Positions 35,229 through 54,382 of a stretch of 64,000 nucleotides of DNA are shown one piece after another. A model generated the notes under the pieces. That model searched no databases, was not told where the DNA came from, and worked only from the letters and a program-made list of their open reading frames with translations. Position numbers and translations under genes: made by a program. Source of the DNA: Sphingorhabdus profundilacus (GTDB lineage Bacteria > Pseudomonadota > Alphaproteobacteria > Sphingomonadales > Sphingomonadaceae); the NCBI RefSeq assembly GCF_009769755.1, contig NZ_SDWJ01000002.1:62001-126000 (forward strand), in the 5' to 3' direction. How positions within the stretch are numbered: the first letter of the stretch is position 1; the number at the start of each line of letters is the position of its first letter.

Positions 35229-35286
35229 TATATTTCCCCTTTCCTGTCCCAGGCTGTAACCTTGGGTGGCGGGAGGGTACGCCTCG

Positions 35287-35317
35287 TCCTCAATCGGACA
35301 ACCTACACCTTATACCA
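35287..35317 (-). promoter_or_regulatory. Rhodopsin promoter region with GTCC-N6-GGAC dyad
   Basis: On the minus strand TATAAG (in GGTATAAG, 35310-35317) is a candidate -10 box. Just downstream lies the dyad GTCC-TCAATC-GGAC (35287-35300), well placed for a regulator. The divergent LOV-HTH protein is an obvious candidate to bind, but that is inference. A CCCAAGG/CCTGGG imperfect hairpin follows in the leader. Confidence 0.4.
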
Positions 35318-35420
35318 TGTTTTACCGATATTGGAGCGACTCGATAAAGAGAGCAGACCATTAATATAATGAGGCGTCTCGACGCATTTTGCGGTGCCTT
35401 AAAAATGGGAGACAGCAGCA

Positions 35421-36035: not shown

Positions 36036-36036
36036 G

Positions 36037-36113
36037 TAATATCAGATTCCGTGCAGATTACATTCGGTGGGGCGATTGGAGTGCCTGCACTTGCCTCGAA
36101 ATATCTGATATTA
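36037..36113 (+). other. Long-range stem directly behind the LOV-HTH stop codon
   Basis: TAATATCAGAT (36037-36047) and ATCTGATATTA (36103-36113) are perfect 11-base inverted arms. Inside them GTGCAG (36051-36056) and CTGCAC (36085-36090) form a second stem. The structure starts one base after the LOV-HTH stop. There is no U-run behind it, so it is not a classical terminator; it may stabilise the 3' end of the mRNA or be a structured RNA element. Confidence 0.55.
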
Positions 36114-36197
36114 TTTACTTAATATTGATCGCAGAATTACCCGCATTGCACCAATCGCGTCAAAACCTTCAGGTGTGCGTCAACTGCATTTTCCATC

Positions 36198-36226
36198 TTT
36201 ACATACATAGTATTACTACTTATAAA
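36198..36226 (+). promoter_or_regulatory. Near-consensus promoter in front of a candidate small RNA
   Basis: TTTACA (36198-36203) and TATAAA (36221-36226) are separated by exactly 17 bases, differing from the sigma-70 consensus in only one base per hexamer apart from the final T. No reading frame starts downstream on this strand before the terminator at 36390, which suggests an RNA gene. Start of transcription is expected near 36233. Confidence 0.6.
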
Positions 36227-36232
36227 GAGCGC

Positions 36233-36430
36233 AGACAGATTTGGTGTCAATAGTTCTGAATAAGCTTTGCTGATTTGGGAATGTTGGTGCCAATCCAGCC
36301 CGCTATGGTTCCCCATTAATTCCATGGCGGGCTGGTCGATCCGAATGGGCGCAAGCCCATTCACCTTCCTAGTGGTCGTAACATTACTTGGATGGCACGA
36401 TATCTCCGGATATCTGCCATCCATTTTTTT
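36233..36430 (+). ncRNA. Candidate structured small RNA downstream of the LOV-HTH gene
   Basis: The approximately 198-base interval has no convincing coding frame. It begins at a near-consensus promoter and contains three hairpins in order: 36295-36335 (14-base stem with one G-U, 13-base loop), 36343-36362 (8-base stem capped by GCAA, a GNRA tetraloop) and 36390-36422 (14-base stem with one bulge, capped by TCCG, a UNCG-type tetraloop) ending in seven T residues. Between the second and third lies CACCTTCCTAGTG, which can expose a CUUCCU loop able to pair with ribosome-binding sites. I know no Rfam family with this order. It may be a trans-acting light-locus RNA; unproven. Confidence 0.6.
36390..36430 (+). 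terminator. Intrinsic terminator of the candidate small RNA
   Basis: GGATGGCA-C-GATATC and GATATC-TGCCATCC pair around TCCG to give a 14-base-pair stem with a single bulged C; seven T residues follow one base later (36424-36430). This is a strong Rho-independent signal on the plus strand only. Confidence 0.85.
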
Positions 36431-36503
36431 GTAAAATGAAAATTCCAGCTAGCCTTTTTTAAGTGATCGCTCCTGATATGAAAAACTTAAATCGGATTTG
36501 TTC

Positions 36504-36869
36504 ATGCGGTTAAGTCTGGATCTTGTCCTTATGATGGGGGCGTTGCTGAATGGCTTTGGCGCGGTCAAACTGTTTGCCTCGTCATTTCCCAAAGTGGACA
36601 CGCAGCATAGACCGGACGATTATTGGCAACTGCGACTATTTGTCGCTGGAACCGCGATGGTTTTCGGGTTGACGTATATATATCTCTATTACAATCCTGT
36701 ATTTGTCTGGCCGTTTTTACTCTTCGGTGCGGCACTAAAGAGCTGGGCCTTCTTTCTCAGCCTTTATCTGCTGATTTTTGGTCGCCTATCAAAAAAGGCT
36801 TTTATCGAGTTCGGACTGACAAACGGCGTCGTTGCAACCGCATTCTGGATATTTCTGTCGACATTATAG
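36504..36869 (+). CDS. Small four-helix membrane protein, unknown function
   Basis: The 121-residue product has four hydrophobic helices (about 5-25, 44-63, 70-92, 102-120). No family is recognised. The ATG at 36504 is two codons inside the longest frame, which starts at a TTG. It lies after the candidate small RNA and before the degenerate repeat at 36948. It may belong to the light locus by position only. Confidence 0.65.
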   Translation: MRLSLDLVLMMGALLNGFGAVKLFASSFPKVDTQHRPDDYWQLRLFVAGTAMVFGLTYIYLYYNPVFVWPFLLFGAALKSWAFFLSLYLLIFGRLSKKAFIEFGLTNGVVATAFWIFLSTL

Positions 36870-36947
36870 AGGTGCGAAACGGCCCAATGTCCGTTGTCGT
36901 TTGAAGCCGAACCAGGACCACAGATGGCTATGTTGAGCCATAAACAC

Positions 36948-37003
36948 ATAGATATCATCGTCGAGGCGTCAAAATGGCTTCAAAGCTCGACGACAATATC
37001 TAT
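36948..37003. repeat. Degenerate dyad related to the MITE-like element
   Basis: ATAGATATCATCGTCGAG (36948-36965) pairs with CTCGACGACAATATCTAT (36986-37003) at 16 of 18 positions. The centre holds CGAGGCGTCAAAATGGC, 17 bases identical to the inner part of the element at 56227-56493. It may be a fragment or internal relative of that element, and it can also form a hairpin at the end of the flanking transcripts. Confidence 0.6.
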
Positions 37004-37014
37004 GCGTTCATATC

Positions 37015-38151
37015 CTAGCTTATCGGGGGAAGGCTACTACCTTCCCAGGTCAGGAAATTCATAATCTCAGGTGACGTTGGGCTAAGTGCCATAGGACATG
37101 CTATCCCTGGTAATATTTCAACATCGTATAACTCGGCCACCGCACCGTCGATGCGGAACCATTCTACGCAAGTGCCCCGTTTTATATCGATGATTTGAAT
37201 TCCGCACCAAGGCTCACTGTCCGCCGCCTTCAGCTTTTCATCGAGCGGTAAACCTTCAAAGCGTTCATAGCGGGGTTTGGAAAGGCCTACAAAAGCAAGA
37301 TCACCGTGGAATGCCAATCCACGGGCAAAGCCTGGGCAGAAAACACGTGGGACGAATTTGCCTTTCCCGCTCGCCGCACCTTCAATGACGCCCAATTCCC
37401 CGGTCCCGGAATTAAGCACCCAAAGTTCACCATTATGGACGCGCGGCGAATGCGGCATTGATAACCCGTTGCAAATCACCTTGTTCTTTTTAACGTCAAT
37501 GACGATGCCGCCATCTGATCGGCGATCACGCCAGCCGTCGATAGTGTCCGATTTGCTTACCGCGGTGACATAGACAGGTTCGCCATTTTCCATAGCCAAC
37601 CCGTTGAGGTGGCAGCGGTCTTCCTTCACCAAAGCGGAAACAAAATCGGGCTTCCACAACATTCTAAAGCTGTGCTTGGGATCAGTTGTCGCTAGGCAAT
37701 TAAATTGGGTGTTTACAAAAATAAGGTCACCATTGGACGCCACACCGACATCATGCGCGTCCAGTTGACCTGTGACATGCACATCACGCGGGACGAAGCA
37801 GGCATCAAAAAGGGTATTCACACGTTCATGCGCTGCCAAAGGGTTGTGGAACGTCATCAATTGATAACCCGATGACAAGGACAGCGTTCCGTTGGCGTCA
37901 AAGGAAAGGCCCATTGGCTTGGGAATACCTGTCTGGTGCAAATGTGCGCCCTGGTTGTTCCGACCCAACATATAAAGCAGACCAGACTGATAGGATGTGA
38001 ACGCGACCGAAATATTGAGCCGGGCCAATAGAGCGACCAGCCCGCCGGACTGCGAATATTTCACGCTATTGGTCGACGGCGACGAACTTTCAGATGTCAC
38101 CGGCTGAGGTGCGGTCTCTTTCTGGACTTTAATCTTCGATTTGCTAACCAT
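37015..38151 (-). CDS. TIGR03032-family (DUF4915) beta-propeller-like protein
   Basis: The 378-residue protein has a low-complexity N-terminus (1-35) and then the TIGR03032 core: LARLNISVAFTSYQSGLLYMLG, DAHDVGVASNGDLIFVNTQFNCLA, CHLNGLAMENGEPVYVTAVSKSD, NGELWVLNSGTGELGVIE, FCPGFARGLAFHGDLAFVGLSKPR. The repeated blade-like blocks suggest a beta-propeller. Function is unknown; relatives often stand beside very large repetitive surface proteins. Here it lies downstream of the giant autotransporter in the same direction, 172 bases apart with a hairpin between. No signal peptide is seen, so it is probably cytoplasmic. Confidence 0.85.
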   Translation of the reverse strand: MVSKSKIKVQKETAPQPVTSESSSPSTNSVKYSQSGGLVALLARLNISVAFTSYQSGLLYMLGRNNQGAHLHQTGIPKPMGLSFDANGTLSLSSGYQLMTFHNPLAAHERVNTLFDACFVPRDVHVTGQLDAHDVGVASNGDLIFVNTQFNCLATTDPKHSFRMLWKPDFVSALVKEDRCHLNGLAMENGEPVYVTAVSKSDTIDGWRDRRSDGGIVIDVKKNKVICNGLSMPHSPRVHNGELWVLNSGTGELGVIEGAASGKGKFVPRVFCPGFARGLAFHGDLAFVGLSKPRYERFEGLPLDEKLKAADSEPWCGIQIIDIKRGTCVEWFRIDGAVAELYDVEILPGIACPMALSPTSPEIMNFLTWEGSSLPPIS

Positions 38152-38280
38152 TGGGAATCTCCAGCTTGTTTAATATTCGTCTGGCAACGGCCATAACGAG
38201 GGTCGAAACACAACCGGACGAACCGCGTCCTCTTCAGGAACACAGGCCGCCCCGCCGCATAAATATTTCAAAGTCTGAAA

Positions 38281-38314
38281 TGTGGCGCGGTGCGATATGC
38301 TAACCCGCGCCACA
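38281..38314 (-). terminator. Hairpin behind the autotransporter gene
   Basis: TGTGGCGCGG (38281-38290) and CCGCGCCACA (38305-38314) form a perfect 10-base stem with a 14-base loop. On the minus strand only ATTTC follows, so it is a weak terminator that may allow partial read-through into the TIGR03032 gene. Confidence 0.6.
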
Positions 38315-38323
38315 ATATCAAAA

Positions 38324-41300
38324 TTACCAGTTAAAACGCAGACCGACCTTGCCGGTTCCAGCTGTGGTTTTCTGGTCTATGCCGAATTCAACATCTGCAT
38401 CGACGAAAATTTCGGTCTGTTTTGCTACCGTCAGCGTCGTACCAAAGCCGATATCGACCCAGGTTTTCTTCGGCTCGAGTTTACCAATAGACTGGCCTGC
38501 GATGGTTGATGAAACATCCGCCCCTAATAAATTGTGCCACAAATTGGTCTTCAGATAACCACTGAATAGGCCACCTTCGGTGCTGTATTTCTCATCCTTA
38601 GTCGTTTTCAAACGGAAACCTACACGACCGATAATGCTGTCTTCGATAGCGACTTTGTTCAAAATCTCGTCGCTGTCGATCGCTCCATCAAACTTGTTGT
38701 TGCCGTAAATGACTTGCAATTGAGGTTCAAAAGCCAAGCGTCCGCCCAGTTTTAGTGACTTGCCCATTTCAAGCGAGCCCAAGAAAGTGCGCCCTTCTGT
38801 TTTGAGCTTTGTACCATTTGCCGCATTTGCTGCAGCGTCAAGGAAACTCGCTTGTACCACAGCATTTGCGTACCATCCGGTTGAGCCATAATAAGTACCA
38901 TAAAGACCGGTTAACCAACCTTTGCTTTTCGAACCTCCGGAACGACGAGCTACATCTTGGAATATATTTGTGTCGGAAGAACTGCCGTCGGCATAACCAG
39001 CGTAAACTCCGGCGAAGGCCGCCGACCCGTTGCCGCTAATTTTGCGGACAAAATCCAGACCCATTTGCATTCCCGTGATGGAACCGTTCGATTTGACCTC
39101 GCCCAGCTCTTTCGATGCCAAGCGATCACGGAAGCCCTTGCCTATGAATCTGCCCCAAAGCCCGCTTACTCCGCCACTTTGATAGTCACGTTTGGCAATA
39201 TGTTCCTGCTCACCTACACGCTCTTGCAAAGTGCCAAGAAAGGTCATCGAGATGTCATCACTCAACCGTGCGAGTGACAGGGTGGTCGCAGCAATGTCGC
39301 TGAGACCAACTGTACGCAGATACCAATCTTGATCATTCGGATCGGCAATACCACCGAGGAAAAGATCGTAACGGAAACCGCCAACTTGCAGGTCACCGCC
39401 TGCTAATTGTAGAGCATCAGCGCTGGACGTTCCACCCACTTGCACGAGTTTAATGCCGTCACCGACTGTCAAGCCGCCTACACCGCCAACATTGTTGATC
39501 GCTACAAGACCGGTGCCGCTAACATTCCCGCCGATGATTAACAAGTCGGTCGGGGAGTTATCTGCGCCGATTACTGTATCGATAGTTGTTTGACCACCGG
39601 CATTGGTAAAGTTGCCGCTGACATTCAGCCTGTCTCCAGCCTTTCCTGCAGCGCCACTCAAATTGACCAGACCAGCATTGGAGAGGTTACCGATAATACT
39701 TACATTTGCATTTCCGGCGGCATTTCCAACGAGCAATGTTCCACCTTTGGCGACTACCATATTGGCCGTAATCGCTAAGTTGTTCGATGAATCGAGCGTT
39801 CCGCCATTACTAGTTGTTATCGCCCCTGCTGTGATTGCCGCATCGCTAAACCTGACCCGGCCAGCATTGATATTGACCGCTTCCCAATTTGTTACACGGG
39901 CGCCGACCAGATCATAGGTTCCGGCACCGTTCAGGTTGAGCGTATCGACAAAACCATCTGCAGCCGAGATATTGTCACCGCCATCTAAAGCAGTGATCGT
40001 TGCGAAAGCCGCCGTATTATCTATCAGGAAATTTGCGGTATCACTGCCATTGCCGAGCCGGATTGTACCGTTAATCAGCGTTCCCTTGGCAACATTGAGA
40101 ACGCTATCGCTTTCGTTATTCGAAATCGCAGCACCCGAAGCAGCAGAAACCTCCGCAGTTGCAGCAAGGCTAATCGTTGTCAGCTTGCCCGCGTTGCCAA
40201 AGGTCGCAATACCCGCACCTGTGCCGCCGATGATCTTGCCGGTAACAGACAGGGTGGAGGCGCCGGTCCCCTTATTATCAGCCAATATGCCGTTAATCGC
40301 GCCCTTTGCATCCTTGGCAGCAACCGAAAGTGTCGTTGCCGATGCTCCATTGAGCACGGCGATACCGTTCGCGGTCGCGCCGTTAACGGAACCGATTGAT
40401 GTAACGGAGGATGCACCATTACCATTGTTGGTCGCAATGATACCGTCGATTGCGCCGGTAACATTGGCAGCCTCTATGGTGAGGTTTGTAGTGCCTGCGG
40501 TGTTGTTGGCGAAGATACCCGCCAATGTAGTTCCTGTTACATCGCCTTTGGCCTTAATTGTCGTTGAGGCCGGAGCAGCCGCAGATCCGACACCATTGTT
40601 GGTAACAAAAATACCGAAGTCATCGCCCCGCACAACATTGGCATCGACCAGGATAGCAGTGCCTTCGGCATCGTTCACAACCGAGATGCCATCTGCCGTG
40701 GTGCCCGTCACTGTGCCCTTGGCCGTGACGGAAGTAACACCTGAACCATTGTTGACCGCATCAATGCCGGAGAGCGAACCGGTAACAGTGCCTGTGCCCG
40801 AACTCGCGTCGATTGTGAGCGAGCCTGCTGTCGCGGCGTTGAAGGCGTTGATGCCGTCGCCTGCGCCGCCGGTTACATTACCCTTGGCAAGGACCGAAGT
40901 CGCGCCATTTCCGTTGTTTACTGCAATGATACCGAAGCCACCGGTACCGGTAGCATTGGTTGCATCAACCGACACCGCACCGCCAATAGCGGTGTTCGAA
41001 ACCACAATGCCGTTCAAAGCACCAGTGACTGTGCCTTTTGACGTCACGCTCGTATCACCAGTACCGTTGTTGCGGGCAAATATGCCATCAACTCCGCCCG
41101 TGACATTATTCGCACTAACCGTCAGTGCGCCTGCGGTTGCAGCATTTGACGCGTAGATGCCATAAGTTGTACCGGTCACATCGCCTGACGCGCGAACCGA
41201 CGTTGCACCATCGCCATTGTTCACCGCTACGACCCCAATGCCATTGGAACCGGTGACAGTGACCGCATCGACCAAAAGTGCACCGCCGGCAGTGGTGTTG

Positions 41301-44300
41301 AATACAGCGATACCGTTAGACGCACCGATGACAGTACCCTTTGACGTTACACTGGTGTCGCCATTGCCGCTATTGCTTGCCGAAATACCATTGCCGCCAC
41401 CACCGGTGACATTGACCACATCGATGGTGAGGTTATCGGTATTTGCCGCGTTACTGGCAAGAATACCGGTTTGCGTGGTTCCGGTGACATCGCCCCTCGC
41501 CTTGATTGTGGTCGATGCAGGAGTACCAGCTGATCCGGTGCCATTATTTGTGACGACGATACCGAATTGTTCACCCTTAACCACATTGGCGTCAACCAGA
41601 ATGTCAGTGCCCAAGGCGGTGTTGACGATAGAGATACCGTCTACGCCCTGACCGGTCACTGTGCCGTCAGCCTTTACCGAGGCCGCGCCTGCTCCATTAT
41701 GGATAACACTTATACCAAAACCGGAACCCGTTACATTATTCGCACTGACCGTCAGTGCGCCAGCGGTGGCCGCGTTGTTTGCATAGATGCCGTCACCTGC
41801 GCCGCCGGTCACATCGCCCTTGGCCACGATCGAAGTCGCGCCATCGCCGTTGTTCACCGCGATAATTCCAAAACCAGCGGTGCCTGTGACATTGTTTGCG
41901 TCAACCGACACTGCACCGCCATTGGTGGTGTTTGAAATCACGATGCCGTTCAACGCACCTTTGACTGTTGTGGTAGTGCCTGAAGATTTCACGCTTGTGT
42001 CGCCATTGCCGGTGTTACGGGCAAATATGCCATCGAGGCCACCGGTCACATTGGCAACATCAATCAAGAGATTGTCGGTGTTCGTGCCGTTCAACGCAAA
42101 AATACCAGCCTGGTTGGTTCCGGTAACGTCGCCCTTTGCCTTGATGGTCGTCGATGCAGGCGTCGCCGCCGATCCGGTGCCGTTATTTGTGACGACGATA
42201 CCAAACTCGTCCCCCTTCACAATATTGGCATCGACCAGAATATCGGTACCCTCGGCATCGTTGACGACCGAGATACCGTCGGTGTCCGTGCCGGTCACTG
42301 TGCCGGTCGACGTGACCGAAGTCGCGCCTGCACCATTGTTCACCGCGCTGATGCCCGAGTTGGAACCGGTCACATTTTTTACGCTGATGTTGAGCGCACC
42401 GGCCAGTTCATCATTGAGCGCATAAATACCGTCGCCTGCACCGCCGGTCACATCACCGGAGGCCAAAATCGTGGTAATACCCGCACCATAATTTGTCACC
42501 AGAAGGCCATAGCCGTCCAAGCCGGTCACATTGGCAACATCAACCGTCACCCCGTTACCGGCGTCGGTGTTGGCCGCAAATATCCCGTTGTTCCCGCCTG
42601 TTACCGTGCCGGTGGACTTCACATTGGTATAGCCACTGCCGTTGTTGATCGCGCCAATGCCGTCAAGCGCGCCCGTTACATTCACCGCCTCAATTTTGAG
42701 ATTGGCAGAATTACCACCGCCGACCACCGCAATACCAAAGGCAGTTTCGCCCGTCACATTGCCCTTTGCTATCACAACCGTGTTACCGGAACCAATATTC
42801 GTCGCAAGGATGCCGGTCGTCTTGCCGGTGACCGCCGCAACGTCAATCGTCAGGTCATTCGCATCCAGAAGATTGAGCGCGTTGATGCCATCATCGGTAC
42901 CGCCGTTGACCAGACCATCGGATGTAATGGTCGTGTCGCCGGTGCCAAAGTTGATCGTGTTGATCCCCTGATAGCCGCCACTGACATTTTTGACATTAAC
43001 CGTCAGGTCGGTCTGCTCCGTCCCGTTGCGCGCCAATATGCCATAAGTGCCGCCGCTTACCGTACCCGATGACGACACCGTCGTCGAACCCACTTCCGCG
43101 CTATAGTTGAACGCGGTTACGCCGTTCACGCTGCCCGACACATCGGCAACGGTAATCGTCAGATCCTGGGCACTGCGGCCATTGGCTGCAAAGATACCGT
43201 CGCCGGCCTTGGCCGTGATAACACCGTCCGATGAAATGATGGTATCGCCCGCGCCATAATTGATCGCAAAGATACCGTTGCCGACCGCGCCGGCCACCGC
43301 AGGGTCACCCACGGTGATGTTCTTAGCAACAATGGTCAGGCCCTTTGCGGTGTCGTAATTATACGCCTCGATCCCGTCATTATTGGCCGTAATCGTGCCA
43401 CTAACGGTGATCGTGGTAAAGCCGGACCCGCGGTTTTCCGCATCAATACCGTCCGCAGCCGCCTTCACATCAACCGCCGTCACCTCAAGATTGATCGCAG
43501 AGGAATCATTATAGGCGCTGATGCCGTCACTCGCCAGTGATTCCACCAATCCGGTCGAGACCACTTTGGTCGAGCCTGTGCCATAATTGGCGGCAAAAAT
43601 ACCTTGATAGGTCGTCCCCTTGGCATTTTTGGCCGTAACCGACACGTCCGTTCCGGTACCATAGACGCTGTTGAACGCAGCAATACCAACCTGTCCGCCA
43701 ACAACATCGCCCCTGGCGATCACATCGGTTACGCCGCCGCCATTGTTGAACGCCAATATACCGACGCCGCCCACGCCGCCGGTCGCATTGTTGGCATCGA
43801 TGAACAACCCGCCCAAGGAAGACACATCATTATACGCATTGATGCCGGTAACCCCGCCGGTCACCGTACCAGTGGAGGTGACGCGCGTTACGCCCGTGCC
43901 GTCATTGCCGACCAATATACCATTGGCCGCCGTGCCGGTGATATTGTTGACATTAATTGTCACGTCCGACCCGACATCGGTATTAAACGCGACAAGGCCA
44001 TTGGCCCCGCCGGTGATTGTTCCGGTACCCGTTACCGTGGTCGTGCCGGTGCCGAGATTACGGGCCGAAATGCCGTTAAAGCCACCTGTCACATCGCCCG
44101 AGCTGACCGACAGATTGACCGTACCCAGACCGTTCGAAGCAAAAATACCGTTTAAATCCCCGCTCACCTTGCCTGAAGACACAAGCGTGGCCGATCCGCC
44201 CGCATCATTGACAAAGTTGACGCCGTTCACCGCGCCCTTCACCTCGCCGGTGCCGGTTACATTGACCGAGCCGGTCAAATCGCCGGTCGCGGCGCCCTTG

Positions 44301-46825
44301 GTCAGGTTCACCCCGTGCAAGCCGCCCTGCACCAGGCCGGTCACGGTCACATCAATAACACCATTACCTTCATTAACCGCATTGATCCCGTTGATCGCGC
44401 CGGTCACATTATTGGCATTGATCGTCACATTCTTCGCCGTCGCGCCATTGAACACTTCGACGCCATTGCCGGTCTTGCCCACAACTGTGCCGGTACTTTC
44501 TAGAAGAGTATTTCCCACACCTTGATTGTCGACAAAAATACCATCATCGCCGCCGGTTACGGAGGCAACATTTAAGGCCGCGCCTAAGGTTTTTTCACCA
44601 TTGTACACAAAAATACCGTCGCCGTTGACGCCTTCCACTGCGCCGGCGATGACGAGCGTTGTCGAACCCGCACCGTAGTTTTGAGCATAAATACCGCTGT
44701 TCCCGCCCGTGATAGTCGGCACAGCGACGCCACCCACAACTTCCGACACTTTGGTCGAAGTGATGGTCAAGCCAGTTCCTGCCGTATCACCCGATGCGGC
44801 CGTGCCGCCTGTATTTTCCCCATTATAGGCCAGAATACCATTATAGAGGCCCGTGGCATAGCCAGCACCGCCAGCGACCACACCGCTAACCGTGATGTTC
44901 GTAATACCCCCTGCGCCTTGATTATCCACTTCGATCCCGTTAAGCGCGCCGGTTACATTATTGGCATTGACCGTCATATTCTTCGCGGTCGCACCATTGT
45001 ACACATCAATGCCATTGCCGGTCGTGCCAACGACGGTGCCGGTGCCCGATACGATTGTGTTGCCCGTGCCCACATTGTTCGCGTCGATACCGTTCACACC
45101 GCCAGTGACATCACCGCCCGAAACAATGACGTCGGTTCCGACTGCACTGTTGATGGCAAAAATACCAGTGGTGCCGCCGCTAACCTTGCCGGTCGAAACC
45201 AGATTGATCGCACTCGCGCCATTGTTGTTGATAGCAGAAATGCCGTTAACTGTTCCCGTTACAGACCCACCATCTACAACCGTCACCACGCCGTTCACAT
45301 CTGCTGTGTTCAATCCGTTGATGAAGCTTACACCGGTAACACCTGAAATGTCGCCATTCACCGTTACGCTTGCGGTCCCGCTGCCCAAGGACACGGCAGA
45401 AATAGCCGTCGTCGCTGCCGTGATATCACCGTTGAGAGTGAGCTTCGCATTCCCAGTGCCGCCATTCTCAAGATTTATAGCACTATTTGCTCCCGTGACA
45501 TTACCGCCAACAGCCAGCGTCACTGTCGCATCAAGATTTGCATCCGTGTCGCCATTGGACAGGTTTATACCATGATCGCCGCCCGCGATGAGGCCGTTTA
45601 CGGCGATGTTAGTCAATCCACTGCCGCCATTTAGAATGTTTATAGCATTTTCACCCGCAGACACATCCTTTACAGAAACCGAAACGCCCTGCGTATTCTC
45701 TCTGGCATCGACATAAACACCATTGAACGCGCCTGTAACCAACCCGGTCGAGGTAACCGTAGTCACGCCCGTGCCACCGTTGATTGCACGAATACCGATA
45801 TTTGCGCCCGTGACATTGGCTACATCAATCGTAAGGTCGGTCGTGTTCGGGTTTGCGTTCAACGCATCAATGCCGATAGAGCCACCATCAGTTGCTGTGA
45901 CATCTCCAGTCGCAGTGATCGATGTCTTGCCGCCACCCGCACCTCTATTCGAAACAACGATACCAAAATCGTCACCTGTAACGCTATTGGCCACAATCAA
46001 AAGATCGGTCGCGCTGGAGCCATTTAAGTTCGTGGCCGCAATGCCAGCGCCGGCGGTTGAGCTGACTGCACCACTTGCATTGATAACCGTCGAGCCCGCC
46101 CCACCATTCTGCACATTTATAGCATCACTAAAATTAGCCGTACCTGTCGCAGACACATCCTTTACAGAAACCGAAACGCCCTGCGTATTCTCTCTGGCAT
46201 CGACATAAACACCATTGAACGCGCCTGTAACCAACCCGGTCGAGGTAACCGTAGTCACGCCCGTGCCACCGTTGATTGCACGAATACCGATATTTGCGCC
46301 CGTGACATTGGCTACATCAATCGTAAGGTCGGTCGTGTTCGGTCCATTCTGTGCATCAATGCCAACACCGGCTAAACCCGTAACCGCCTGCGTGGCAGTA
46401 ATGGACGTAGCACCTTTTCCGCCATTATTTGCGAGGATGCCATTATTTGCGCCGATTGCAGCCGTAATGTCGATATTCAAATCCGTTGCATCAGGGCCAT
46501 TTGTTGCTTCAACCGCTGCATTATCGCCGACGATGCCGACGCTCGCCTCAATATTCAGCGCCCCTGTCCCGTTGTTCACATGCTTCACGCTGTCGAACGG
46601 TGGCGGAGTATCAATCACCACATTCACATCCTGCGCCATCGCCTCCGAAGGCACCGCCATCGCGCCACCAAAGGCGAGTGCGGCGGCCATCGCGGCGACC
46701 GAAACAGACTGCAAATGACCGACTTGCGGCGCGTAGCTGGCGACCTGACCCTTCCATTTTGTCATGCGACCTCCGCGAAGCATGATGGAGGTGAAGCCGG
46801 CGCGCGCTTTTGATTCGATATTCAT
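38324..46825 (-). CDS. Giant autotransporter with beta-helix passenger (2833 residues)
   Basis: The protein has an extended signal region (about 1-65, ending EAMAQ), a passenger of about 2400 residues and a C-terminal barrel (about 2500-2833) whose last residue after VGLRFN is Trp, as in AIDA-type autotransporters. The passenger consists of many near-repeats of about 35-40 residues built around N-G-G-T-G, G-T-V-T-G and N-V-T-G turns (for example GIFAINYGAGDT), typical of a right-handed beta-helix. It is a surface adhesin or biofilm-type protein. The ATG at 46825 starts the long frame; the ATG at 46765 (MTKWKGQVA) has GGAGG four bases before it and may be the real start. The sequence is extremely repetitive and could contain assembly errors. 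Confidence 0.93.
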   Translation of the reverse strand: MNIESKARAGFTSIMLRGGRMTKWKGQVASYAPQVGHLQSVSVAAMAAALAFGGAMAVPSEAMAQDVNVVIDTPPPFDSVKHVNNGTGALNIEASVGIVGDNAAVEATNGPDATDLNIDITAAIGANNGILANNGGKGATSITATQAVTGLAGVGIDAQNGPNTTDLTIDVANVTGANIGIRAINGGTGVTTVTSTGLVTGAFNGVYVDARENTQGVSVSVKDVSATGTANFSDAINVQNGGAGSTVINASGAVSSTAGAGIAATNLNGSSATDLLIVANSVTGDDFGIVVSNRGAGGGKTSITATGDVTATDGGSIGIDALNANPNTTDLTIDVANVTGANIGIRAINGGTGVTTVTSTGLVTGAFNGVYVDARENTQGVSVSVKDVSAGENAINILNGGSGLTNIAVNGLIAGGDHGINLSNGDTDANLDATVTLAVGGNVTGANSAINLENGGTGNAKLTLNGDITAATTAISAVSLGSGTASVTVNGDISGVTGVSFINGLNTADVNGVVTVVDGGSVTGTVNGISAINNNGASAINLVSTGKVSGGTTGIFAINSAVGTDVIVSGGDVTGGVNGIDANNVGTGNTIVSGTGTVVGTTGNGIDVYNGATAKNMTVNANNVTGALNGIEVDNQGAGGITNITVSGVVAGGAGYATGLYNGILAYNGENTGGTAASGDTAGTGLTITSTKVSEVVGGVAVPTITGGNSGIYAQNYGAGSTTLVIAGAVEGVNGDGIFVYNGEKTLGAALNVASVTGGDDGIFVDNQGVGNTLLESTGTVVGKTGNGVEVFNGATAKNVTINANNVTGAINGINAVNEGNGVIDVTVTGLVQGGLHGVNLTKGAATGDLTGSVNVTGTGEVKGAVNGVNFVNDAGGSATLVSSGKVSGDLNGIFASNGLGTVNLSVSSGDVTGGFNGISARNLGTGTTTVTGTGTITGGANGLVAFNTDVGSDVTINVNNITGTAANGILVGNDGTGVTRVTSTGTVTGGVTGINAYNDVSSLGGLFIDANNATGGVGGVGILAFNNGGGVTDVIARGDVVGGQVGIAAFNSVYGTGTDVSVTAKNAKGTTYQGIFAANYGTGSTKVVSTGLVESLASDGISAYNDSSAINLEVTAVDVKAAADGIDAENRGSGFTTITVSGTITANNDGIEAYNYDTAKGLTIVAKNITVGDPAVAGAVGNGIFAINYGAGDTIISSDGVITAKAGDGIFAANGRSAQDLTITVADVSGSVNGVTAFNYSAEVGSTTVSSSGTVSGGTYGILARNGTEQTDLTVNVKNVSGGYQGINTINFGTGDTTITSDGLVNGGTDDGINALNLLDANDLTIDVAAVTGKTTGILATNIGSGNTVVIAKGNVTGETAFGIAVVGGGNSANLKIEAVNVTGALDGIGAINNGSGYTNVKSTGTVTGGNNGIFAANTDAGNGVTVDVANVTGLDGYGLLVTNYGAGITTILASGDVTGGAGDGIYALNDELAGALNISVKNVTGSNSGISAVNNGAGATSVTSTGTVTGTDTDGISVVNDAEGTDILVDANIVKGDEFGIVVTNNGTGSAATPASTTIKAKGDVTGTNQAGIFALNGTNTDNLLIDVANVTGGLDGIFARNTGNGDTSVKSSGTTTTVKGALNGIVISNTTNGGAVSVDANNVTGTAGFGIIAVNNGDGATSIVAKGDVTGGAGDGIYANNAATAGALTVSANNVTGSGFGISVIHNGAGAASVKADGTVTGQGVDGISIVNTALGTDILVDANVVKGEQFGIVVTNNGTGSAGTPASTTIKARGDVTGTTQTGILASNAANTDNLTIDVVNVTGGGGNGISASNSGNGDTSVTSKGTVIGASNGIAVFNTTAGGALLVDAVTVTGSNGIGVVAVNNGDGATSVRASGDVTGTTYGIYASNAATAGALTVSANNVTGGVDGIFARNNGTGDTSVTSKGTVTGALNGIVVSNTAIGGAVSVDATNATGTGGFGIIAVNNGNGATSVLAKGNVTGGAGDGINAFNAATAGSLTIDASSGTGTVTGSLSGIDAVNNGSGVTSVTAKGTVTGTTADGISVVNDAEGTAILVDANVVRGDDFGIFVTNNGVGSAAAPASTTIKAKGDVTGTTLAGIFANNTAGTTNLTIEAANVTGAIDGIIATNNGNGASSVTSIGSVNGATANGIAVLNGASATTLSVAAKDAKGAINGILADNKGTGASTLSVTGKIIGGTGAGIATFGNAGKLTTISLAATAEVSAASGAAISNNESDSVLNVAKGTLINGTIRLGNGSDTANFLIDNTAAFATITALDGGDNISAADGFVDTLNLNGAGTYDLVGARVTNWEAVNINAGRVRFSDAAITAGAITTSNGGTLDSSNNLAITANMVVAKGGTLLVGNAAGNANVSIIGNLSNAGLVNLSGAAGKAGDRLNVSGNFTNAGGQTTIDTVIGADNSPTDLLIIGGNVSGTGLVAINNVGGVGGLTVGDGIKLVQVGGTSSADALQLAGGDLQVGGFRYDLFLGGIADPNDQDWYLRTVGLSDIAATTLSLARLSDDISMTFLGTLQERVGEQEHIAKRDYQSGGVSGLWGRFIGKGFRDRLASKELGEVKSNGSITGMQMGLDFVRKISGNGSAAFAGVYAGYADGSSSDTNIFQDVARRSGGSKSKGWLTGLYGTYYGSTGWYANAVVQASFLDAAANAANGTKLKTEGRTFLGSLEMGKSLKLGGRLAFEPQLQVIYGNNKFDGAIDSDEILNKVAIEDSIIGRVGFRLKTTKDEKYSTEGGLFSGYLKTNLWHNLLGADVSSTIAGQSIGKLEPKKTWVDIGFGTTLTVAKQTEIFVDADVEFGIDQKTTAGTGKVGLRFNW
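45656..45850. repeat. 195-bp exact direct repeat in the autotransporter, copy 1
   Basis: This 195-base stretch is identical to 46148-46342, 492 bases (164 codons, in frame) away. It encodes the passenger segment around VTGANIGIRAINGGTGVTT and VSVKDVSA. Identity at synonymous sites shows a very recent duplication or gene conversion, or collapsed/expanded assembly. Confidence 0.92.
46148..46342. repeat. 195-bp exact direct repeat in the autotransporter, copy 2
   Basis: This is the second exact copy of the sequence at 45656-45850. The 297 bases between the copies are not identical to the flanks and code for further beta-helix turns. Confidence 0.92.
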
Positions 46826-46887
46826 TTGCTTTTCTTTTCCTGACTTTGGCGTCGAAATGACACGGATTTTTGATAGTGATGCTATGG

Positions 46888-46916
46888 TTATTAAATAGCA
46901 TAACTATGTATGTCAA
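46888..46916 (-). promoter_or_regulatory. Strong promoter of the autotransporter with operator-like dyad
   Basis: On the minus strand TTGACA (46911-46916) and TAATAA (46888-46893) are separated by 17 bases. The dyad ATGCTAT (46879-46885) with ATAGCAT (46895-46901) overlaps the -10 box and start site, an ideal repressor position. A 55-base leader with CAGGAAAAG precedes the ATG at 46825. Confidence 0.65.
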
Positions 46917-47012
46917 CTTGGCGCGTTTAGGAAATCACCGGCAAAGGGGCGCGTGGGTGGTTGTCTTTGATAGAAAGATGAATTTTTTGGGAGGTTCGGC
47001 GACCATGCGCCT

Positions 47013-47125
47013 TACTCCCCCTCCCGCTTGCGGGAGGGGCTGGGGGAGGGTGTGTCGGCGAGGCCCACAAGGCGGACCTGCGGCCCGCCCCCTCCCCTAA
47101 CCCCTCCCGCAAGCGGGAGGGGGAA
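47013..47125. repeat. Intergenic repeat with CCCTCCCGC(TT/AA)GCGGGAGGG ends
   Basis: Two self-complementary blocks, CCCTCCCGCTTGCGGGAGGG and CCCTCCCGCAAGCGGGAGGG, are inverted copies of each other with GC-rich sequence between. Such units occur many times in sphingomonad genomes as interspersed intergenic repeats. The region 46926-47478 has no gene; it contains this unit, two further stems and short GC-rich stretches. Confidence 0.75.
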
Positions 47126-47306
47126 AGGCCCCTATTTTTCGTCCTAAGGAAAAAGGGAATAAGGAGGAAAGGGATTGGGTTCGCGCGAAGGCGCGAAGGC
47201 TTTATTCTAATTTCTCCGCGAACTCCGCGGAGAGAGTTTTAAAACACCGTCACCCTTGAGCCGAAGGCGTGCGGAGCACAATTTATTTCACCTCCGGTGA
47301 CTGCGT

Positions 47307-53452: not shown

Positions 53453-54382
53453 TCATGCCAATAATCCAAAGCACCAAAGCAGAATGGATTTCTGGCCATG
53501 CAGCCGGTTTTCTGCCTCGTCCCAAATGATCGACTGCGGTCCATCCAAAACGGCGTCGGTCACTTCTTCGCCCCGGTGCGCCGGAAGGCAATGTAGAAAC
53601 TTGGCATCCGGCTTTGCACCCGCCATCAACCGTTCGTTGACCTGATAAGGCATCATGGCGGCGATCTTATCATGGGCATGGTCCTGCCCCATCGACACCC
53701 AGGTGTCCGTGACCACAACATCCGCGCCAGCCACGGCCTCTGCCGCGTCGCGGGTCAGCGTGATCGTCGCGCCGGCAGCCTGCGCCGCTGTAATGAACAG
53801 GCTGTCGCTTTCATAACCCTGCGGTACGGCAATCCGGACGTTGAATTTGAAAATTCCCGCCGCCTCGACAATCGAGTTCAGCACATTATTCCCGTCGCCC
53901 AACCAGGCCACTTCCAGTCCTGGCAAAGCCTTGCCTTGTTCGGCTATGGTCAGCAAATCCGCCACAATCTGGCAGGGATGCGACAGGTTGGTGAGACCGT
54001 TGATAACCGGAACGCTGGCATATTTCGCCAGTTCCTCAATCTTCGCATGGTCGTCAGTGCGGATCATGATGGCGTCGACATAACGTGACAGCACCCGGGC
54101 CGTATCGGCAATACTCTCGCCCCGTCCGAGCTGCATCTGGCCGGACGCCATGAAAATACTGTCCCCGCCCAGTTGCTTCATCGCCATTTCAAACGATGTG
54201 CGTGTTCGGGTCGAATTTTTCTCGAAGATCATGCCCAGCGTATGCCCCGCCAGCGGCGCATCGCTATCGGCCTTGCCCTTGGTCCAGCCGGTCCGAACGG
54301 CTTTTCTATCCATGGCATCGGCAAGCATTACCGCAATGGCATCCCCCCCTGCATCCGACAGGTTCAGGAAATGTCGCGTCAT
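53453..54382 (-). CDS. argF: Ornithine carbamoyltransferase
   Basis: The 309-residue enzyme makes citrulline from ornithine and carbamoyl phosphate. Signature residues are STRTRTSFE (57-65, carbamoyl phosphate), HPCQ (135-138) and HCLP (264-267). The start overlaps the argD stop by four bases and the end is followed by hslO, giving an argD-argF-hslO operon. No regulatory site is clear. Confidence 0.97.

Follow-up and report, generated by a model that had tools for sequence, protein, structure and literature searches.

A conserved, structured RNA is encoded at 36233-36430 (plus strand) of the window, the stretch of 64,000 nucleotides of Sphingorhabdus profundilacus DNA analysed here, and it probably belongs to a regulon of surface adhesins under TetR control rather than to the light-sensing genes that it adjoins. 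In three genomes, sequence comparison finds the same arrangement of promoter with an operator-like palindrome, predicted hairpins and predicted terminator, always directly before a gene for a small membrane protein with four hydrophobic segments (the 4-TM gene) and near the gene of a giant autotransporter. We tentatively read the RNA as the operator-controlled, structured leader of the 4-TM gene within a surface-adhesion regulon, and place this proposal a little below an even chance.

Results

A stable RNA bounded by a promoter and a terminator

The initial annotation had described a new small RNA gene with a near-consensus promoter, three hairpins carrying GNRA and UNCG-type tetraloops, and a terminator. 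Direct reading of the sequence bears out the sigma70-like promoter, TTTACA-N17-TATAAA (36198-36226, plus strand), with its -35 element at 36198-36203, its -10 element at 36221-36226 and a spacer of 17 nt; counterparts with 17-nt spacing precede the RNA in both relatives that carry it, G003 and G004. A simple promoter and terminator scan missed this promoter, as its rule demanded T at the last -10 position, and also missed the terminator of the RNA. Because the scan listed neither, both calls are independent of it.

The RNA of about 198 nt, whose 5' end we infer from the promoter, is delimited by folding, homologues and a consensus fold. Its minimum free energy, calculated for 198 nt from 36233, is -87.9 kcal/mol compared with -54.8 +/- 4.4 kcal/mol in 200 dinucleotide shuffles (z = -7.52), none of which was equally stable, and the sequences of the relatives also fold better than their shuffles (z = -5.60 for G003 and -5.32 for G004). 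Across 426 tiled segments of 200 nt (plus strand only, six shuffles each), a single one, a palindromic stretch at 46951, surpassed the RNA in excess stability.

Hairpin H1 (36241-36293, plus strand, as are all parts of the RNA) has a basal stem, UUGGYR/UGYCAA, that is kept in the relatives, and a variable upper part. Hairpin H2 (36295-36335) consists of 14 bp and a 13-nt loop, UUCCCCAUUAAUU, which is conserved (36309-36321). The consensus fold then draws an outer stem (36337-36378) around hairpin H3 (36343-36362) and the conserved sequence CCUUCCUA (36364-36371); this stem has 5 bp (36337-36341/36374-36378) and leaves CCUUCCUA unpaired, while the single-sequence minimum-energy fold of the window has a 3-bp stem in its place. 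Folding and alignment place the intrinsic terminator at 36389-36430, with a stem of 15 pairs and one bulge (36389-36423), the loop cUCCGg in the window and a U7 tract (T7 at 36424-36430). The three hairpins and the terminator with T7 are thus upheld by folding. The tetraloops are present in the window (GCAA in H3, UCCG in the terminator) but not conserved, given that the H3 loop reads GCAG in G004 and UUAU in G003, and the terminator loop UCGC and CCCG, respectively. What is conserved are H2 including its loop, the sequence CCUUCCUAGUG.UCGUA and the terminator arms, and hardly any variation is seen in two C-rich stretches, UUCCCCAUUA(A/U)UU of the H2 loop and CCUUCCUA next to H3.

At gathering score the RNA has no Rfam family, the single match in the whole window being a tRNA, and at a loose E-value it has seven weak matches, all far under their gathering scores. 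No riboswitch class of Rfam matches it.

A conserved island in three genomes

Blastn locates the RNA in three of 45 same-genus genomes, namely its own (G000), G003 and G004. A model built on the 3' 144 nt of the RNA (R1) recovers the same three strong matches over 41 genus genomes, together with three more at E 0.24 to 2.8 that we take as chance. Over 397 genomes of the family, a sample without G003 and G004, it matches its own genome only, and so narrow a distribution would be unusual for a riboswitch. Plasmids and phages hold no match to the RNA at E 1e-5, and viral contigs none to the 4-TM protein; we have accordingly set aside a mobile element as an explanation.

G003 and G004 retain the basal H1 stem, H2, the H3 domain and the terminator of the RNA, but its 5' third is longer and different there. 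Across 141-143 aligned nt, the RNA is 85.8-90.2% identical among the window, G003 and G004. The adjoining third codon positions reach 37-41% identity in the 4-TM gene and 41-44% in the neighbouring DUF4915 gene, and the 150 nt upstream of the promoter 38-55% over aligned positions. Comparison of the window with G004 shows how high the genome background is: five syntenic genes past the autotransporter are 77-94% identical (51-88% at third positions), the region upstream of the autotransporter is 87% identical, and other intergenic stretches are 63-98% identical, one of which (53545-54378) looks coding. Conservation of the RNA beyond relatedness is thereby weakened, since its 86% identity between the window and G004 is no higher than this background, and therefore only the contrast with its immediate, diverged neighbours stands. 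By sequence comparison, the RNA stands out as an island of conservation with diverged sequence on both sides, a pattern for which selection on the RNA would be the simple reading and a recombination mosaic a possible one.

In the alignment of the three sequences, 125 of 125 stem cells are paired and four of 42 pairs are changed on both sides; when the partners are slid by 1-3 columns as a register control, pairing falls to 29-43%. The covariation values are equalled by 37 of 500 shuffles, which, together with the small number of sequences (three), makes covariation supportive only. The comparison of stems among relatives, which the initial annotation had put forward as a check, is favourable though thin, as stem changes preserve pairing in three sequences.

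The substitutions also agree with the earlier statement that the stretch holds no convincing reading frame: the pattern is non-coding in all six frames, with nonsynonymous changes equalling or exceeding synonymous ones in every frame over 99 columns. It is extremely improbable that the stretch codes for a short protein or extends the 4-TM protein at its N terminus. A frame of 55 aa does start at TTG 36267 in the window and is open in G004 too, and in G003 up to a 1-nt deletion, but this deletion changes the frame in G003, each pair of genomes differs in the open frame by 6 to 10 nonsynonymous codon changes and no synonymous one (99 columns), and the changes in the stems preserve pairing. A small protein was rejected on this substitution pattern. 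Likewise, the 4-TM frame extends upstream without a stop across the 3' part of the RNA in G003 (an ORF of 175 aa) and as far as just within the terminator in G004, but in the window a stop lies between the RNA and the 4-TM gene.

The promoter carries a putative operator of a proposed adhesin regulon

The spacer of the RNA promoter contains a putative TetR-type operator, TACATAGTATTACTACTTA (36204-36222, plus strand), with one mismatch to TANATAGNNNNNCTATNTA. The RNA promoter, TTTACATACATAGTATTACTACTTA, resembles TTGACATACATAGTNATGCTATNTA, which the autotransporter promoter contains in all three genomes. In the window, the same operator lies in the autotransporter promoter at 46892-46910 (minus strand), with a second exact core site at 46873-46885. 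This core, ATAGTNATGCTAT, has four exact sites in the genome of S. profundilacus; the autotransporter promoter accounts for two of them, a third separates two divergent TetR genes, and the fourth precedes a gene for an EAL phosphodiesterase.

A pattern combining promoter and palindrome (at most one mismatch) occurs at 17 sites in four of the 45 genus genomes (four in G000, six in G003, five in G004 and two in G019), and the reversed-pattern control at none in the 45. Sixteen of the 17 sites precede genes for the autotransporter (three), EAL proteins (four), YadA-type adhesins (four), GMC oxidoreductases (two) or the RNA (three), and the remaining site, in G019, precedes a gene without assigned identity; these assignments rest on Pfam for one YadA-type, one EAL, one GMC and two TetR proteins and on sequence likeness for the others. 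The GMC oxidoreductase gene with the operator sits beside the TetR pair. A weaker site precedes a secreted, beta-helix-like protein (named by eye) in three genomes, and at two to three mismatches sites are no commoner than in the control. As these same genomes supplied the pattern, absence of the operator elsewhere is weaker evidence than its presence.

Exactly the four of 45 genomes that have the operator also encode an orthologue, at least 71% identical, of the TetR protein whose gene adjoins the operator, and the best TetR match in the other genomes is 38% identical at most. A second TetR gene lies beside the first in all four operator genomes, and the operator palindrome separates the two TetR genes in each of the three genomes looked at (G000, G003 and G004). 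G019 has the TetR protein and the operator without the RNA. Since a single clade may comprise all four genomes, this co-occurrence is consistent with the TetR protein being the regulator and is no proof of it. The RNA is probably under TetR-type control, judging by its promoter. We propose that the TetR-family pair, encoded elsewhere in the genome, would repress the RNA together with the autotransporter, the YadA-type adhesins, the EAL phosphodiesterase and the GMC oxidoreductase, a step suggested by promoter architecture and co-occurrence.

Adjacency to the light locus

The left flank of the RNA in the window is a cluster of LOV-HTH, rhodopsin and carotene-dioxygenase genes (Pfam), and the initial annotation had assigned the RNA to this light locus as a possible light-responsive regulator. 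Regulation by the neighbouring LOV-HTH photoreceptor has in its favour that the RNA adjoins the LOV-HTH gene in this one genome, but we consider it very improbable. None of 80 LOV-HTH loci contains the RNA (blastn, with flanks of up to 3 kb, some cut by contig ends), the three matches obtained being 18-25 nt long at E 0.36, and in G003 and G004 the RNA occurs without a light locus beside it; the best LOV-HTH proteins of these two genomes, at most 53% identical, are encoded far from the RNA. The sequence TACCATGT is common to all ten rhodopsin/LOV intergenic regions examined (the window and nine of the 80 loci, hand-picked for a complete rhodopsin flank) and is absent from 36036-36440. Moreover, the promoter of the RNA fits another regulon, as it shares its element with adhesin genes. 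Light control was discarded on these tests of synteny and motif, and the case illustrates how the neighbourhood in a single genome can mislead about function.

As a separate observation, the rhodopsin/LOV-HTH intergenic region of the window (35229-35420) carries TACCATGT, which makes it a candidate site for a light regulator; a known binding site of EL222 was not found in the literature searched.

The 4-TM gene and the surface module

The 4-TM gene (36504-36869, plus strand) encodes a protein that has four hydrophobic segments and no Pfam or NCBIfam match and is 121 aa long, or 123 aa if translation begins at TTG 36498. It is the next neighbour of the RNA on the same strand in all three genomes, and its ATG follows the T-run by 73 nt in the window, 39 nt in G004 and 23 nt in G003. 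The protein is found in the same three of 45 genomes as the RNA, and an alignment search of the 397 family genomes returned its own genome only. Two further members of the module follow on the minus strand, the gene of the DUF4915/TIGR03032 protein (37015-38151) and that of the giant autotransporter (38324-46825; 2833 aa), and the RNA and these three genes remain together in G003 and G004. Beyond the autotransporter, synteny with the window covers the next gene in G003, where the fetched stretch ends, and several genes in G004. On the other side of the RNA, both relatives have genes for a TetR protein, a glyoxalase-like protein and an FAD-oxygenase-like protein (named by eye).

Three features of the module deserve mention in their own right. 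The genes at 36504-46825 (4-TM, DUF4915 and autotransporter) differ between species far more than do the syntenic genes to their right, as if, judging from these comparisons, the surface module were fast-evolving or exchanged. A long inverted repeat at 36946-37010, perhaps a two-way terminator, lies where the 4-TM and DUF4915 genes converge, and its sequence GGCGTCAAAATGGC resembles, by eye, a sequence near position 57448 of contig C2 of G000. Finally, the region upstream of the autotransporter (46951-47150) forms a very stable palindrome of inverted GCGGGAGGGG units with an excess stability of -37 kcal/mol, of which G004 has a shorter form and the G003 stretch none that we could see.

Leader or trans-acting RNA

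The spacing that follows the terminator in G003 is too short for a promoter, and the 4-TM gene would therefore be reached only by overriding the terminator, unless a promoter lies inside the RNA, as it may. As a leader, the RNA might work as follows. By default, transcription would halt at the terminator and yield an RNA of about 200 nt; if the terminator were overridden, the 4-TM gene would be expressed. Override could come about when UGYCAAUCC, which comprises the 3' strand of H1 and extends into H2, takes the terminator arm (GGAUGGCA) as its alternative partner, perhaps helped by a hypothetical ligand or protein. This pairing (8 pairs with one bulge) can form in all three sequences and is the minimum-energy fold in none of them; in transcripts truncated ahead of the 3' terminator arm, it costs 5.4, 6.9 and 7.2 kcal/mol relative to unconstrained folding. 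In these folding models it is possibly an antiterminator that needs help, or possibly chance, since H1, H2 and the terminator also constrain both strands.

Alternatively, the transcript of about 200 nt could belong to the adhesin regulon as a small RNA that acts in trans, its C-rich stretches, UUCCCCAUUA and CCUUCCUA, pairing with mRNAs and damping their translation, with read-through into the 4-TM gene being incidental. We regard this as a serious possibility, although a less probable one. The RNA has its own promoter and a strong terminator, and the two C-rich stretches are nearly invariant whereas the tetraloops vary; by analogy, they could pair with Shine-Dalgarno-like runs, and comparable stretches act in other alphaproteobacterial small RNAs (PMC10746234, PMC3927594, PMC12559287). 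However, a duplex test that covered 25 start regions, taken from genes of the regulon, the module and the light locus, found no consistent target and no z below -1.7, and the tight coupling to one downstream gene would need another reason. With the alternative pairing possible at 5.4-7.2 kcal/mol in all three sequences, we slightly favour a leader of the 4-TM gene. Of the proposed small RNA gene, the structured, non-coding RNA bounded by promoter and terminator has held, and it may be either a free-standing small RNA or a leader.

Discussion

The RNA described here constitutes a family without an Rfam match, and its flanks on both sides are less conserved than the RNA itself. One putative operator connects it, in environmental bacteria, with giant adhesins, YadA-type adhesins and a c-di-GMP phosphodiesterase, and both the TetR pair and the RNA offer starting points for experiments on how these bacteria choose between an attached and a free life.

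A second leader, of about 150 nt, lies before the EAL phosphodiesterase gene at 442166-442319 of contig C2 of G000 (1284-1437 of locus L133, minus strand; also in L131, L129 and L158), with the same operator upstream. It has 94% mean column identity in four genomes and a strong consensus fold in which no pair is changed on both sides. The three loci scanned (L133, L131 and L129) have no Rfam match, and a model of the leader gives a weak match of 29.9 bits in a genome of another genus (G336). The EAL leader is possibly related to c-di-GMP, and a model search indicates no homology between it and the RNA before the 4-TM gene. That the regulon of the TetR pair has an RNA layer of its own, composed of two unrelated structured leaders (4-TM and EAL) each representing a new sensing class, is an unlikely but conceivable extension. 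By eye, the C-rich loops of the RNA (UUCCCC and CCUUCC) could pair with the GGGGGAAGG arm of a hairpin in the EAL leader; if true, this RNA-RNA contact would link adhesin expression to the breakdown of c-di-GMP.

Several known systems invite comparison. Small RNAs of the alpha-r14/NfeR1 and SisA-D types in Alphaproteobacteria consist of hairpins with unpaired, C-rich stretches resembling anti-Shine-Dalgarno sequences, and the alpha-r14/NfeR1 type is defined by CCUCCUCCC in each hairpin (PMC10746234, PMC3927594, PMC12559287). The RNA likewise has several hairpins and C-rich stretches of this kind, but it differs in lacking an Rfam match and CCUCCUCCC, which was not found in the hairpins of the window or of the relatives' sequences, and in having a TetR-type palindrome in its promoter and preceding a membrane-protein gene. 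Among the open-licence titles listed for small RNAs of Sphingorhabdus or of sphingomonads, or for DUF4915/TIGR03032, none concerns the RNA or its regulon.

Like attenuator and riboswitch leaders, the RNA is structured and ends in an intrinsic terminator, which lies 23-73 nt ahead of a start codon, and in all three sequences the terminator arm may have an alternative partner. It is unlike them in having no Rfam class and a distribution of three genomes of one genus only, and in that its alternative pairing is 5-7 kcal/mol less stable than its own free fold and spans two hairpins.

Regulons of TetR-family repressors typically have a palindrome between the -35 and -10 elements of their target promoters and between divergent TetR genes, and both positions are occupied here as well. 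Among the matches listed in the open-licence literature, none describes the gene set of this TetR/adhesin regulon, and it is this set that distinguishes the system from its counterparts: a giant autotransporter, YadA-type adhesins, an EAL phosphodiesterase, a GMC oxidoreductase and a structured RNA.
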